Shown one piece after another: positions 1,972 to 6,637 of a DNA stretch of 50,397 nt (positions within the stretch are counted from its first letter, which is position 1; every line of letters begins with the position of its first letter). The notes beneath the pieces were generated by a model that made no database searches, was not told the origin of the DNA, and saw only the letters and a program-made list of their open reading frames with translations. Origin of the DNA: Methanocaldococcus sp. (GTDB lineage Archaea; AGJL01; Methanococci; Methanococcales; Methanocaldococcaceae); NCBI RefSeq assembly GCF_024490875.1, contig NZ_JACCLX010000024.1:1-50397 (forward strand), in the 5' to 3' direction. Position numbers and translations under genes: made by a program.

Positions 1972-2655
1972 ATGGTAGAAAAAGTTTATGGGGTTGGAGT
2001 AGGTGTTGGTGATAAAAAATTACTAACCTTAAAGGCATTAGAAGTTTTAAAAAAAGTTAATAAAGTATTTATTCCAATATCTAAACAAGGAAAAAAATCT
2101 ATCGCTTATGAAATTGTAAAGGACTACATTAAAGATAAAGATATAGAAGAATTACTATTTCCAATGATTAAAGATAAAGAAAAATTACAAAAATATTGGA
2201 ACGATGCACTAAAAAAAATTTTAAATGAAGATGGTGAAGTGGCGATAATTACTATAGGAGATCCAACTTTATATAGCACATTCTCATATATATGGAAACT
2301 TTTAAAAGAAAATGGTGTTAAAGTGGAAATAATTAACGGAATATCTTCAATATTTGCCTCAGCCTCTGCTTTAAACATTCCATTAGTCGAAGGAGACGAA
2401 AAACTTTGTATTCTTCCACAAGGAAAAGACTTAGAAAAATATATTGATGAATTTGATACTATTATTGTAATGAAAACAAAAAATTTAAAAGAGGCATTAA
2501 AGAAGATAAAAAATAAGGATGATTACATCATAGGCTTAGTAAAAAGAGTTACATTTGATGATGAAAAAGTGGCTATTGGAAAATTTGAAGAGTTAAATTT
2601 TGATGAATTTAATGATTATCTATCCTTAGCAATAATAAAAAAGGTTAAAAAATGA
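1972..2655 (+). CDS. cbiL: Precorrin-2/cobalt-factor II C20-methyltransferase
   Basis: A 227-residue tetrapyrrole methylase. It carries the family glycine motif GVGVGDKKLLTLKALEVL at the N-terminus and the internal GDPTLYSTFSYIWKLL segment that lines the SAM site. The best fit is CbiL, which methylates C20 of cobalt-factor II or precorrin-2 in anaerobic cobalamin synthesis; methanogens need corrinoids for the membrane methyltransferase Mtr. GGTGA at 1960-1964 sets the ATG at 1972. Its TGA stop overlaps the ATG of the next gene (ATGA at 2652-2655), so that gene is likely translationally coupled. Assignment among CbiL and sister methylases rests on recalled motifs, not a search. Confidence 0.87.
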   Translation: MVEKVYGVGVGVGDKKLLTLKALEVLKKVNKVFIPISKQGKKSIAYEIVKDYIKDKDIEELLFPMIKDKEKLQKYWNDALKKILNEDGEVAIITIGDPTLYSTFSYIWKLLKENGVKVEIINGISSIFASASALNIPLVEGDEKLCILPQGKDLEKYIDEFDTIIVMKTKNLKEALKKIKNKDDYIIGLVKRVTFDDEKVAIGKFEELNFDEFNDYLSLAIIKKVKK

Positions 2656-3713
2656 AAATTGTAAAAGCAGTTCCTGAGGAATTTTTAAATGGATTGTATT
2701 TAATTCCAACTGATAGATACAACTTACTAAATTTGGATGAAAATGGAAAATTTATAGTATCTAAGAATATACCCATAATTAGAATTTTAGCCACTCCTAA
2801 CTTAAAAAAAACAATATCTAAACTAATTTACCAAATTAAAGCTAAATACTATCTATTTAGGAATTATAAGAATGCTCATTGGCTAAAAAATCTTTTAGAA
2901 TATATTGATGAAAAAATAAAATTTGATAAATATTATAGGGCAAAAAAGGCGTGGTATAGAGGAATAGGTGATCTATTTAAAAATATAAGGAAATGGGAAT
3001 TTGAAAAGGTAATAGGAAAAGTAATTTCTTTATTAAGAGCTTTAAATCCAATATTAGTTTTAGAAATACACGACATAAGAATGTGGCACTATAAAAAGAG
3101 TTTTATAAACTTTGTTAAAGTATTGAGAAAAAACAATATAACTGTTGTTTTAAGGTATCCTATAGACTGCCATAAAATAATTAAAAGGATTTTCCCAGAA
3201 GGTATTTTAAATACTGAGGCAACAATAAAATACTTTGCACATGTTCATGGTTATTATATAAGTAAAAAAGTGGCGTCATACTTATTAAAAATAACTAACG
3301 GAAACTTAGACATGATTTACATTATATTAAAGCATTCAAAAAGAAATATAAAAACACTTAGAGAATTAAAAATACCTTGGCTTAAAATTTTACCATATAT
3401 AGTTGATTCGAAATATAAAAAATTAGTTGAAGTTATTGTTGAACTAAGAAAGTTTAAAATTGAAGATATAATATATAAAGTTAATTATAAATTATCAACT
3501 CTATATAAATATTTAGATGATTTGGTCGAATTGGGAATTCTAACAAAGATAAAATATAAAGGAAAATTAAGATTTAGATTAAAATTAAATCGAAGAACTC
3601 TTTTAAATTTAATCCAAAAATATAAAGAATATTACAAATCTTGGTTTTCCATTTACCTATTAGATAGCATATCTTGGAATATACGGATTTTCGAATTTTC
3701 GAGTAAAATATAA
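2652..3713 (+). CDS. Winged-helix protein with a P-loop-less ATPase-like domain, origin-adjacent
   Basis: A 353-residue basic protein. The middle contains a hydrophobic strand followed by acidic residues (NPILVLEIHDIRMW, about 132-145), which looks like a Walker B/sensor layout. No GxxxxGK[ST] P-loop is present, so ATP binding is doubtful. Residues about 265-335 read as a winged helix: a recognition-helix stretch KLSTLYKYLDDLVELGIL followed by a KYKGKLRFRLK wing. The overall plan (ATPase-like core plus C-terminal wHTH) resembles Orc1/Cdc6 and archaeal STAND-type ATPases. It overlaps cbiL by four bases. Its last codons run through a copy of the repeat found in the adjoining intergenic region, so the true C-terminal tail may be short. 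A DNA-binding role is inferred; no named family is recognised. Confidence 0.7.
   Translation: MKIVKAVPEEFLNGLYLIPTDRYNLLNLDENGKFIVSKNIPIIRILATPNLKKTISKLIYQIKAKYYLFRNYKNAHWLKNLLEYIDEKIKFDKYYRAKKAWYRGIGDLFKNIRKWEFEKVIGKVISLLRALNPILVLEIHDIRMWHYKKSFINFVKVLRKNNITVVLRYPIDCHKIIKRIFPEGILNTEATIKYFAHVHGYYISKKVASYLLKITNGNLDMIYIILKHSKRNIKTLRELKIPWLKILPYIVDSKYKKLVEVIVELRKFKIEDIIYKVNYKLSTLYKYLDDLVELGILTKIKYKGKLRFRLKLNRRTLLNLIQKYKEYYKSWFSIYLLDSISWNIRIFEFSSKI
3686..3704 (+). repeat. Third copy of the origin-region repeat core, inside a gene end
   Basis: GATTTTCGAATTTTCGAGT differs by one base from 3854-3872 (the start of the left repeat arm). It covers codons for IFEFSS, ending nine bases before the stop of the upstream gene. 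It is a direct repeat of the left arm and inverted relative to the right arm. Confidence 0.85.
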
Positions 3714-3856: not shown

Positions 3857-3887
3857 TTTCAAATTTTCGAGTCGCATGTATGTATAT
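3857..3887 (+). repeat. Left arm of 31-bp inverted repeat
   Basis: The arm pairs with 4205-4235 on the other strand with one mismatch (A at 3861 against C at 4231). Its core reads AATTTTCGAGTCGCATGTAT at 3862-3881, followed by GTATAT. The CG-containing core stands out in otherwise AT-only sequence, which suggests a protein recognition site. Confidence 0.92.
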
Positions 3888-3896
3888 AATTCCAGA

Positions 3897-3906
3897 GGGT
3901 ATACCC
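3897..3906. repeat. 10-bp perfect palindrome GGGTATACCC beside the left arm
   Basis: GGGTATACCC is ten bases past the end of the left arm and is the only G/C-rich patch in the region. It has no counterpart at the right arm, so it breaks the symmetry. It could be a protein-binding site or chance. Confidence 0.7.
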
Positions 3907-3922
3907 AATCAATTTTTAGTTT

Positions 3923-3934
3923 AATTATCACAAA
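3923..3934 (+). repeat. Left arm of inner 12-bp inverted repeat
   Basis: AATTATCACAAA is the exact reverse complement of TTTGTGATAATT at 4159-4170. The distance from the outer arm (35 bases, 3888-3922) nearly equals that on the right (34 bases, 4171-4204), so the two repeats share one centre. Confidence 0.85.
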
Positions 3935-4046
3935 GTTAGAGATTATAGGATTATATTATATTACACTATATATATGTCAAAAACAAAAAATAACCAAAAA
4001 TAAGATTAATTAAAAAATAATATTAAAATATTTAATAAAAATATTG

Positions 4047-4058
4047 TCAAAATTTTGA
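4047..4058. repeat. Central palindrome TCAAAATTTTGA
   Basis: A perfect 12-bp palindrome within six bases of the common midpoint of the two inverted repeats. It is embedded in nearly pure A/T sequence that would melt easily. Confidence 0.8.
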
Positions 4059-4158
4059 TATTTATAAAAAATGGAAACAATATACTGTTTATTTTAATAA
4101 AAAGTCCAGTTAATACTATTTATTTTTAAAAATAAGGCATAATTATCAATATTTTAAT

Positions 4159-4170
4159 TTTGTGATAATT
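4159..4170 (-). repeat. Right arm of inner 12-bp inverted repeat
   Basis: TTTGTGATAATT pairs exactly with 3923-3934. Its TGATAATT half also pairs with AATTATCA at 4141-4148, giving a small local hairpin possibility with a 14-base loop. Confidence 0.85.
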
Positions 4171-4204
4171 CTCAATTCATAAAATTTTTTCAAATTCAGT
4201 GACC

Positions 4205-4235
4205 ATATACATACATGCGACTCGAAAATTCGAAA
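4205..4235 (-). repeat. Right arm of 31-bp inverted repeat
   Basis: The arm is the reverse complement of 3857-3887 with one mismatch. It ends one base short of the stop codon of the minus-strand gene at 4237, so this arm directly abuts the end of that gene, much as the 3686-3704 copy marks the end of the opposing gene. Confidence 0.92.
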
Positions 4236-4236
4236 T

Positions 4237-4767
4237 TTATTCATTTTGATCTTCCAATATTTTATAGAGTTTTTTCAGATATTCAATATGTTTACAGTTA
4301 TTACACTGGCAGATGACACACCACCATTGCCCAGTATTGCTTCTAAAAACATCACCTAAATGCTCTCCATTAGAATCAAAGAAGGAAAATATATATCCAC
4401 CAAGTTTATCCTTCTTCCATTTGATTTCAAACCCTATCTTACTTAGTGGGTAATACTTAGTAGCAATTTTCTTTTTATGTAAATGTTCGAAAACATTCGA
4501 AAAACTCAAATCGAATATTTCTGGGGCTAATCTTTTTAATATGGCCAATCCTTTGGTTGTAAATGAATATAATACTTTATGTCCAGCCCTTTCCCTTTTC
4601 ATTACATTTAACGCTGAGCACAGCCTTAAAAAAGAACATGCAAGACCTTTCGATATATTTAAATTTTTTGAGAGTGATTGAGGATAGGTTGTGCCACATA
4701 TTATCACATAATGTAAAATAGCCTTTCTGAATATAGTTGATACTAATTCGTATGGAAGTCTTTCCAT
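4237..4767 (-). CDS. Winged-helix protein with C-terminal SWIM-like zinc motif
   Basis: A 176-residue protein. Residues about 12-78 form a winged helix (SLSKNLNISKGLACSFLRLC helix-turn-helix, then a wing GHKVLYSFT). The C-terminal part has beta-rich sequence ending in WWCVICQCNNCKHIEYL. There Cys153-x-Cys155-x2-Cys158-x-His160 follows the SWIM pattern CxC...CxH with a very short spacer, and Cys150 is an extra possible ligand. SWIM fingers bind DNA or proteins. GGTG at 4774-4777 places the start at ATG 4767; a GTG at 4776 is in frame. The gene lies between the repeat region and the 640-bp intergenic region shared with the divergent Orc1/Cdc6-like gene. I believe it corresponds to M. jannaschii MJ0773. 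A role in origin recognition or regulation is inferred. Confidence 0.75.
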   Translation of the reverse strand: MERLPYELVSTIFRKAILHYVIICGTTYPQSLSKNLNISKGLACSFLRLCSALNVMKRERAGHKVLYSFTTKGLAILKRLAPEIFDLSFSNVFEHLHKKKIATKYYPLSKIGFEIKWKKDKLGGYIFSFFDSNGEHLGDVFRSNTGQWWCVICQCNNCKHIEYLKKLYKILEDQNE

Positions 4768-4880
4768 TTCTGACACCTTTTTTTATTATTTTGTAAAATT
4801 TCTGATCAAAATTTTATATTTACTCAATTATTTTTAAGCTAATTATTTATAAAGTTTTTGATTCATGACTTTAATTTTCT

Positions 4881-4908
4881 TCAGTATTACGCAGTATAGT
4901 ATTACTGA
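4881..4908. repeat. Imperfect dyad TCAGTATTAC/GTATTACTGA
   Basis: Two 10-bp arms with one mismatch are separated by eight bases. They also contain AGTATTAC as a direct repeat. The dyad is located 114 bases upstream of the start of the minus-strand winged-helix gene and may be an operator. Confidence 0.6.
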
Positions 4909-5015
4909 CATTTTGGGAATTTTTAAGTTGTATAATCATTTTATCTCAAATATTTATTCCTTATTTATGTGATATCTAAAATATTTTTTAATATACTTCT
5001 ATATCAAATTTTTTA

Positions 5016-5030
5016 AGTATTGTTAATACT
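5016..5030. repeat. Perfect dyad AGTATTGTTAATACT
   Basis: Six-base arms surround GTT. The right half (GTTAATACTAT) recurs at 4109-4119 in the convergent repeat region, linking the two intergenic regions. Confidence 0.6.
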
Positions 5031-5070
5031 ATATATACTTTTTGATTCATAGTTATTTTGTCTAAAAATT

Positions 5071-5082
5071 TTAGATTCACAA
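5071..5082 (+). repeat. Iteron copy 1, TTAGATTCACAA
   Basis: First of three identical 12-mers in the region upstream of the Orc1/Cdc6-like gene. Spacing to copy 2 is 156 bases start to start. Confidence 0.8.
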
Positions 5083-5226
5083 TTTTTTAAATTTCTAGTT
5101 TTTATTTTATTTCTATGAGAAAAATTCAAAAAATCTTTATTTCATAATAATAGTATATATATAATTTAGAATTTTATTCAAGTTTAATTCTGAGAATGTT
5201 CGATTGTGATTTTACATAAGTTAAAG

Positions 5227-5238
5227 TTAGATTCACAA
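5227..5238 (+). repeat. Iteron copy 2, TTAGATTCACAA
   Basis: Identical to copies 1 and 3 and in the same orientation. With the preceding G it reads GTTAGATTCACAA, also matched at copy 3. Confidence 0.8.
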
Positions 5239-5257
5239 TATTTCCTATATTTTATTG

Positions 5258-5269
5258 TTAGATTCACAA
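5258..5269 (+). repeat. Iteron copy 3, TTAGATTCACAA
   Basis: It starts 31 bases after copy 2, about three helical turns, so both copies would face the same side of the DNA. Confidence 0.8.
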
Positions 5270-5339
5270 GTAATTTAAAATTATCTATACTCATAGTTAA
5301 TTCATATATAAAAATTAATTAAAATTTGAAGATTCTAAC

Positions 5340-5360
5340 TTTCGAAATATATATAAAATA
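5340..5360 (+). promoter_or_regulatory. BRE/TATA promoter of the Orc1/Cdc6-like gene
   Basis: TTTCGAAAT followed by ATATATATAAAA (5347-5358) matches an archaeal BRE plus TATA box. Transcription would begin near 5380, about 28 bases before the ATG, which agrees with the chosen start. Confidence 0.6.
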
Positions 5361-5407
5361 GTCAAAACAAAAATTCGAAAAACATACGTTATTTTGGTGA
5401 GAGGGAT

Positions 5408-6637
5408 ATGGACCCAATAGAGTTTATACAAATGTCTGCGAGTTCAATAGCGAGTACTATGCACAAGTTAAAATTAAAATATAATCCATTTTCTGAAAAG
5501 CCCATAAGAGGAAACACTAAGTTTTTTGTAGGGAGAGTTAGTGAGTTGAGAGAAATTGGGGAGATTTTAGGATCAGCCTTACATGGAAGTGTGGCAAATG
5601 CGGCAATAGTTGGAACTAAGGGTATAGGAAAGAGTTCAATGCTTAACATTATATACTATGCAACAAAAAAGCAGGGACATTGGGTAGTAGAGATGACTGC
5701 ATCTCAAGTAACTCCAAGACAGTTTTTGATACAACTATTATACAATATCTTAACTGAAAACATTATTACGATGAGTGGAACTATAAAAACTGACTATATG
5801 GAACATTCTAATAGAATCTTAGATATGTATAGAAAATTAAACAACTACGGAGATAAAGTTCCAATACATTATCCAAGAGAAAGAATAGAGAGAGATTTAG
5901 AATATTTAATAAACGAAGTTAAAAGTCCAGATAGATTATGTATAATATTAATTGATGAGGCAGACCAATTTGCAAAAAAGAGTTGTTTGTCATTATTACA
6001 ATTTTTCCATTCATTTTTATATGAAGAGGGAATATTGACATTTATGGCGGGATCTCCAACATTAATGGATGATTTAACAAAAATATCTCCCCCAATAAAA
6101 GATAGAATTCCAAAAATAATAAACATGCCTCCATTATCTAAAGATGAATCTTACGATTTAATTATAAGAAGATTAGAAGATGCCCATGTTGAAGGATCTG
6201 ATGAATTAGATCCATTTACTGAAAATGCTATACATAGGATAGTTGAAGAATGTGATGGGATCCCAAGAAAGATAATAATGACATGTTCAGAATCAATTTC
6301 CATAGCAATAAAACATGGCTTAACAAAAATTGATGAAGATGTAGTAAAAAAGGCAATACATTCTCTTGGAATTAGTGTAGGGCATCAGATTTTAAATCAC
6401 TTAACTCCTGCACAGTCTGAAATTGTCAAGGTCATGGCAAAACTTGGAGGGTCTGCAACAGTAACTCAACTTTCTGAGTATCTAAAAAAATCTCCAAGCA
6501 CTATTGGGACTCACTTATCTGACATTTATGAGATGGGATATATTTATAAAGAACGGGATGGAAACAATGTTTATTATATACTATCTAAAGAACTTAGGGA
6601 TGTTTTAATAGGTGAAGATGATGAATTGGAAATATGA
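5408..6637 (+). CDS. Diverged Orc1/Cdc6-like AAA+ ATPase, candidate replication initiator
   Basis: A 409-residue AAA+ protein with a C-terminal winged helix. FVGRVSELREI (40-50) resembles the start of the Orc1/Cdc6 fold. Walker A is GTKGIGKS (69-76), Walker B is IILIDEADQF (179-188, Asp183-Glu184), sensor 1 is near 210-217 (LTFMAGSP), and a sensor-2-like GIPRKII has Arg287. Residues about 332-392 form the wHTH (STIGTHLSDIYEMGYIYKERDG). The order and length match Orc1/Cdc6. Methanococcales were long said to lack a clear member of that family, and I recall MJ0774 of M. jannaschii proposed as a distant one. GGTGAGAGG at 5396-5404 sets the start. It overlaps mptA and lies beside the repeat-rich regions, which supports a replication role. 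A STAND-type regulator is the alternative. Confidence 0.75.
   Translation: MDPIEFIQMSASSIASTMHKLKLKYNPFSEKPIRGNTKFFVGRVSELREIGEILGSALHGSVANAAIVGTKGIGKSSMLNIIYYATKKQGHWVVEMTASQVTPRQFLIQLLYNILTENIITMSGTIKTDYMEHSNRILDMYRKLNNYGDKVPIHYPRERIERDLEYLINEVKSPDRLCIILIDEADQFAKKSCLSLLQFFHSFLYEEGILTFMAGSPTLMDDLTKISPPIKDRIPKIINMPPLSKDESYDLIIRRLEDAHVEGSDELDPFTENAIHRIVEECDGIPRKIIMTCSESISIAIKHGLTKIDEDVVKKAIHSLGISVGHQILNHLTPAQSEIVKVMAKLGGSATVTQLSEYLKKSPSTIGTHLSDIYEMGYIYKERDGNNVYYILSKELRDVLIGEDDELEI

Follow-up and report, generated by a model that had tools for sequence, protein, structure and literature searches.

The window analysed here, a 50,397-nucleotide stretch of DNA from Methanocaldococcus, a heat-loving methanogen, contains a locus in which the order is orf353, an inverted repeat, wHTH179, a 631-bp gap, a Cdc6-like gene and mptA. 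The genes and the second gap are as follows.

2652–3713, + strand: orf353, a protein confined to the Methanococcales with a C-terminal winged helix and a predicted fold weakly like that of Orc/Cdc6
4237–4776, − strand: wHTH179, an N-terminal ArsR-like winged helix with a C-terminal WWCxxCxxxxCxH zinc-finger-like motif
4777–5407, no strand: second intergenic region, the equivalent of the predicted M. jannaschii oriC, where the 200 bp of lowest stability in the window lie
5408–6637, + strand: divergent Orc1/Cdc6-like AAA+ ATPase with a winged helix (MJ0774 orthologue)

The start codon of wHTH179 is probably the ATG at 4767. This gene (−) and orf353 (+) converge on the gap that carries the inverted repeat, and a promoter role of the repeat for its flanking genes is therefore unlikely. 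Its elements are listed below.

3689–3704, + strand: incomplete third arm copy comprising the outer 16 bp, in direct orientation about 168 bp to the left of the arm
3857–3887, + strand: left arm, the outer element of the TTTCGARTTTTCGARTTGCATGTATGTATATG module, kept in 13/13 Methanocaldococcus genomes with the locus
3888–4204, no strand: AT-rich spacer, 17% GC, conserved in length but not in central sequence; proposed melting region
3923–3934, + strand: left inner element ATTATCACAA, at a fixed 66-bp offset from the arm start
4159–4170, − strand: right inner element, the mirror copy and counterpart of the left one
4205–4235, − strand: right arm, the inverted copy, ending one base before the wHTH179 stop codon

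The arms are each 31 nt long, 97% complementary with a single mismatch and separated by 317 nt, which reproduces the coordinates and the mismatch given in a preliminary description of this DNA. They form the top inverted repeat within 450 bp anywhere in the 50-kb window, scoring 28, whereas none of 30 dinucleotide shuffles of the window gave a score above 16. The inner repeat is likewise reproduced; it can be extended to 3923–3938/4155–4170 at 94% complementarity and is centred at 4046.5, half a base from the centre of the arms at 4046. The preliminary description had taken this for two independent repeats sharing a centre, an argument that fails once related genomes are compared: in each of the 13 Methanocaldococcus genomes, ATTATCACAA starts 66–67 bp in from the outer end of its arm, and the offset on the right side matches except for one diverged right copy that was missed by the pattern. 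Each half of the structure is a single rigid two-element module (~78 bp, TTTCGARTTTTCGARTTGCATGTATGTATATG plus ATTATCACAA) which occurs twice in opposite orientation, and it is because arm and inner element belong to one rigid module that the arms and inner repeats share a centre.

The module pair lies between orf353 and wHTH179 in every Methanocaldococcus genome with the locus (the window and 12/12 others), spanning 376–379 bp in 12 of the 13 and 367 bp in the remaining one. It recurs across the Methanococcaceae in a weaker form, where the left arm is present in 13/13 loci read and a right arm faces it in 11 of them over a span of ~360–389 bp; the two exceptions (G017 and G015) have no recognisable right arm at that spacing, and the inner element ATTATCACAA was not found in several Methanococcaceae. 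Comparison with related genomes, proposed in the preliminary description, thus finds the pair kept throughout the genus and more weakly across the order, at the same place beside the Cdc6-like gene. Full arms occur as only one pair per genome, the closest other matches carrying three mismatches, while the shorter core TTTCGARTTTTCGAR has a few further copies, several of which lie near this locus. A short non-coding AT-rich sequence bounded by terminal inverted repeats could also mark a mobile element of the MITE type, but such an element would not be expected as a single copy per genome, flanked by the same genes in the 13 Methanocaldococcus genomes as well as, in more diverged form, in the Methanococcaceae. 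We found neither dispersed copies nor variable insertion sites and rejected this possibility, the probability of which we regard as negligible.

The preliminary description also noted that the space between the repeats is nearly all A/T, and the spacer indeed has a GC content of 17% compared with 29% for the window. Across Methanocaldococcus the value ranges from 15 to 22%, and the sequence of the middle is not conserved. The two 200-bp stretches of lowest stability in the 50 kb are the one in the second gap, which is the least stable of all, and positions 3936–4135. The palindrome described near the centre exists, as a 12-bp sequence at 4047–4058, but is not conserved in other species. Scans for sigma-70-type promoters and terminators, which are unsuited to archaea, gave no signal. 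The two arms of one genome differ less from each other than arms of different genomes (0.77 as against 1.95 differences, in a permutation that ignores relatedness), as would be demanded by pairing of the ends of a non-coding RNA through the 31-bp arms. Concerted arms are, however, also expected from gene conversion or from a binding protein common to both arms, and the spacer, at 17% GC, is not conserved in sequence; moreover, an Rfam search returned no match and the predicted fold of the spacer as RNA is no better than that of shuffled sequences (z −1.06). An RNA gene is on these grounds very improbable.

The third arm copy had been overlooked in the preliminary description. It is present in 10 of the 13 Methanocaldococcus genomes, 164–168 bp to the left of the arm where measured and 130 bp in G009. 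In the window it overlaps the coding end of orf353 (3689–3713), and the C-terminal residues FEFSS are therefore partly dictated by the DNA site.

wHTH179 has an ArsR-like winged helix (profile E-value 2e-5 to CzrA-type repressors) and its C-x2-C-x4-C-x-H end is invariant. For orf353, a good structure model (pLDDT 83) was compared with known structures using Foldseek, in which the second-best match was Sulfolobus Orc1/Cdc6 bound to origin DNA (E-value 7.6e-4), followed by human and Aeropyrum Orc1. The similarity to these Orc proteins is weak, with global TM-scores of 0.14–0.24, and a profile comparison with the Cdc6-like protein supported the winged helix alone (19% probability). A degenerate Orc-like partner is accordingly what the model of orf353 may represent, as a lead rather than a finding.

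The second gap, 4777–5407, carries an array of its own, with five GATTCA repeats in a single orientation.

4857–4866, + strand: GATTCA repeat 1
5041–5050, + strand: GATTCA repeat 2
5071–5080, + strand: GATTCA repeat 3, 30 bp after repeat 2
5227–5236, + strand: GATTCA repeat 4
5258–5267, + strand: GATTCA repeat 5, 31 bp after repeat 4

The steps between them are 184, 30, 156 and 31 bp, the background expectation is 0.12–0.19 copies per 650 bp, and their positions are nearly unchanged across Methanocaldococcus and most of the Methanococcaceae. Just weaker TATTCACA-type copies take their place in those Methanococcus species that have diverged most. This drift from GATTCA to TATTCACA is seen in three genomes (G018–G020, loci L081–L083) in which wHTH179 is most diverged, at 22–25% identity; the Cdc6-like protein of the same genomes is still 68–69% identical. 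The parallel drift hints that wHTH179 may be the reader of the GATTCA array.

A Z-curve analysis by Zhang and Zhang in 2004 reportedly placed the M. jannaschii oriC at 694,540–695,226, in the gap adjoining Cdc6 only. In G004 the GATTCA gap occupies 694,540–695,226, presumably this same interval, and the Cdc6-like gene begins at 695,227, which fits what we take to be M. jannaschii MJ0774. The Z-curve prediction is cited in PMC5333045 and PMC2643942, and reviews treat it as unvalidated (PMC5333045). The core of the Methanococcaceae ORB motif of Ori-Finder 2 and DoriC, TT[TA][GT]ATTCA[TC][GA]AT[AT]T[AT]T[AT] (PMC4164010), is matched by the five repeats of this gap, whereas the inverted arms carry another motif, TTTCGARTTTTCGAR. 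Indeed, the gap combines motif copies, an intergenic position and proximity to a replication gene, the features by which Ori-Finder 2 assigns an oriC, and the inverted repeat does not. Since the predicted oriC is the neighbouring gap with GATTCA repeats of its own, the inverted repeat can be at most half of an origin.

A link between the arms and the Cdc6-like gene is found in the promoter of the latter.

5340–5382, no strand: TTTCGAAA ... TTCGAAA on both sides of the Cdc6-like gene's TATA-like box, an arm-like core at the promoter

TTCGAAA elements flank this box in most of the genomes aligned, and in G004 and G007 the arm motif itself is present at the same place with one mismatch. Because of this arm-like core, the Cdc6-like protein is the first candidate for reading the arms, and the position of the core suggests that the gene may be autoregulated by whichever protein reads them. 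The recurrence of the TTCGA core at this promoter would also fit if the repeats were sites for a local regulator, sensing initiation or controlling transcription of cdc6, wHTH179 and orf353 from outside the melted origin. We consider this improbable, however, as the repeats lie downstream of both convergent genes and ~1.2 kb from the start of cdc6, and as they persist in a genome from which cdc6 has departed.

The genome in question, G003, which we take to be M. infernus, has its Cdc6-like gene, mptA and an ATP-grasp gene at 297 kb, ~192 kb from a block at 104–107 kb in which cbiL, orf353, wHTH179, a GATTCA-type array and all three copies of the arm remain together. The cis block therefore holds together without the initiator gene. 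Beside the GATTCA array of G003, where the Cdc6-like gene set would sit, there is a distant cofE-like gene (L070, 7359–10014; L028). That Cdc6 relocated and left the repeat together with wHTH179 and orf353 would also fit a site adjoining the origin with a centromere-like or chromosome-organising role, in which case the modules would be bound by wHTH179 and the GATTCA gap alone would be the origin. The many winged helices similar to the wHTH179 model include AspA, which binds the centromere of the archaeal plasmid pNOB8. AspA is, however, one among dozens of comparable ArsR/MarR matches, no ParA-type gene was noticed among the neighbours, and the locus has two full sites only, with an AT-rich middle, so that we think this arrangement unlikely, if less so than the regulatory one.

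The three proteins share their distribution with the repeat. orf353 and wHTH179 are found in an identical set of 26 of the 36 Methanococcales genomes, and the Cdc6-like protein in the same 26 together with G029, a contig-edge case. Single-sequence searches detected none of the three in G021, G024, G025, G027, G028 and G032; in these same genomes profiles of the Cdc6-like protein and orf353 also found nothing, and paired arms were not found (e.g. L211, L212). The six form one Methanococcaceae clade on the mptA tree (support 100/99). Several are 96–99% complete, with G021, G025 and G028 at 99% and G028 in one contig. The clade keeps mptA, which in G028 and G021 is adjoined by a 617-aa ORF, taken by eye as a Lon-like protease. 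A further genome, G026 (81% complete), is also without the three proteins; it was left out of the clade because it groups weakly with G030, which has them. Genomes without the whole module survive, and it is therefore not universally needed. The loss is an absence by sequence search, and a replacement initiator may operate in the clade.

The preliminary description proposed that a skew turning point should be sought at the locus. In G003 and G004, skew was sampled in interlaced stretches of 20 kb, covering approximately half of each genome. In G004 there is a sharp local flip in GC skew at the locus, from −0.238 to +0.227, which agrees locally with an origin but largely tracks gene orientation; the latter also flips across the locus, and the sampled skew has several other turning points.

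On the basis of the sequence, we think it reasonably probable that the Methanococcales have a bipartite chromosomal replication origin, with the inverted repeat as one half and the GATTCA gap as the other. Two near-identical, putatively protein-binding modules, each of two elements, would lie face to face, separated by just over 300 bp of AT-rich DNA, and a DNA-binding protein encoded at the locus would bind both in opposite orientation and help to open the AT-rich stretch. The most likely reader of the modules would be the Cdc6-like ATPase, with orf353 or wHTH179 as alternatives, and the second half would be the GATTCA array across wHTH179, which has been predicted before as oriC. Origin function, the pairing of proteins with motifs, and melting and its start site are all inferred here. 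The preliminary description of this locus as a candidate origin is borne out as regards a conserved repeat pair beside a Cdc6-like gene; its arguments from independent repeats and from the palindrome fall away, and the predicted oriC is the neighbouring gap. More tentatively, and with rather more doubt than belief on our part, the bipartite origin could be read by a divergent Cdc6 together with a degenerate Orc-like orf353 and wHTH179, unlike the initiation module of other archaea, with one clade of Methanococcaceae having discarded all of these and replicating without a recognisable Orc1/Cdc6 or this origin.

Methanococcus maripaludis is genetically tractable, and the origin reading is therefore directly testable. 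The approximate location of the origin is already known. The locus contributes exact candidate sites and two candidate partner proteins to a long-standing gap in our picture of Methanococcales initiation, as well as two natural comparisons: a genome whose initiator gene has been relocated far from the sites, and a clade without the whole set. According to reviews, how the Methanococcales initiate replication is still unsolved, as no origin has been demonstrated experimentally and the initiator can hardly be recognised (PMC3984812, PMC5333045). In the literature searched, with subscription papers and supplements mostly outside its scope, we saw neither the inverted module pair nor its two partner genes described, and the same holds for the M. 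infernus split and for the co-loss.

The present locus has its position and its Cdc6-like gene in common with the predicted oriC of M. jannaschii, although the module pair sits one gap further, beyond wHTH179, than the interval reported for that species. Its two site clusters split by a gene are reminiscent of the bipartite oriC of bacteria such as Helicobacter and Bacillus, which has two clusters of sites with a gene between them and is DnaA-based; here the intervening gene encodes a winged-helix/zinc protein and not the initiator. In classical archaeal origins, ORBs in inverted orientation flank an unwinding element rich in A/T (PMC7776575, PMC4010727), and in layout alone the Methanococcales locus is similar: its sites, also inverted, enclose AT-rich DNA and lie next to an orc1/cdc6-type gene, albeit one that is highly divergent and no longer adjacent in G003. 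As the preliminary description had stated, the repeats do not match the usual ORB consensus, the canonical form of which, with its G-string, gave no match at up to three mismatches. The locus differs from classical ORB origins also in that its sites are composed of two elements and that a second array lies across a gene.
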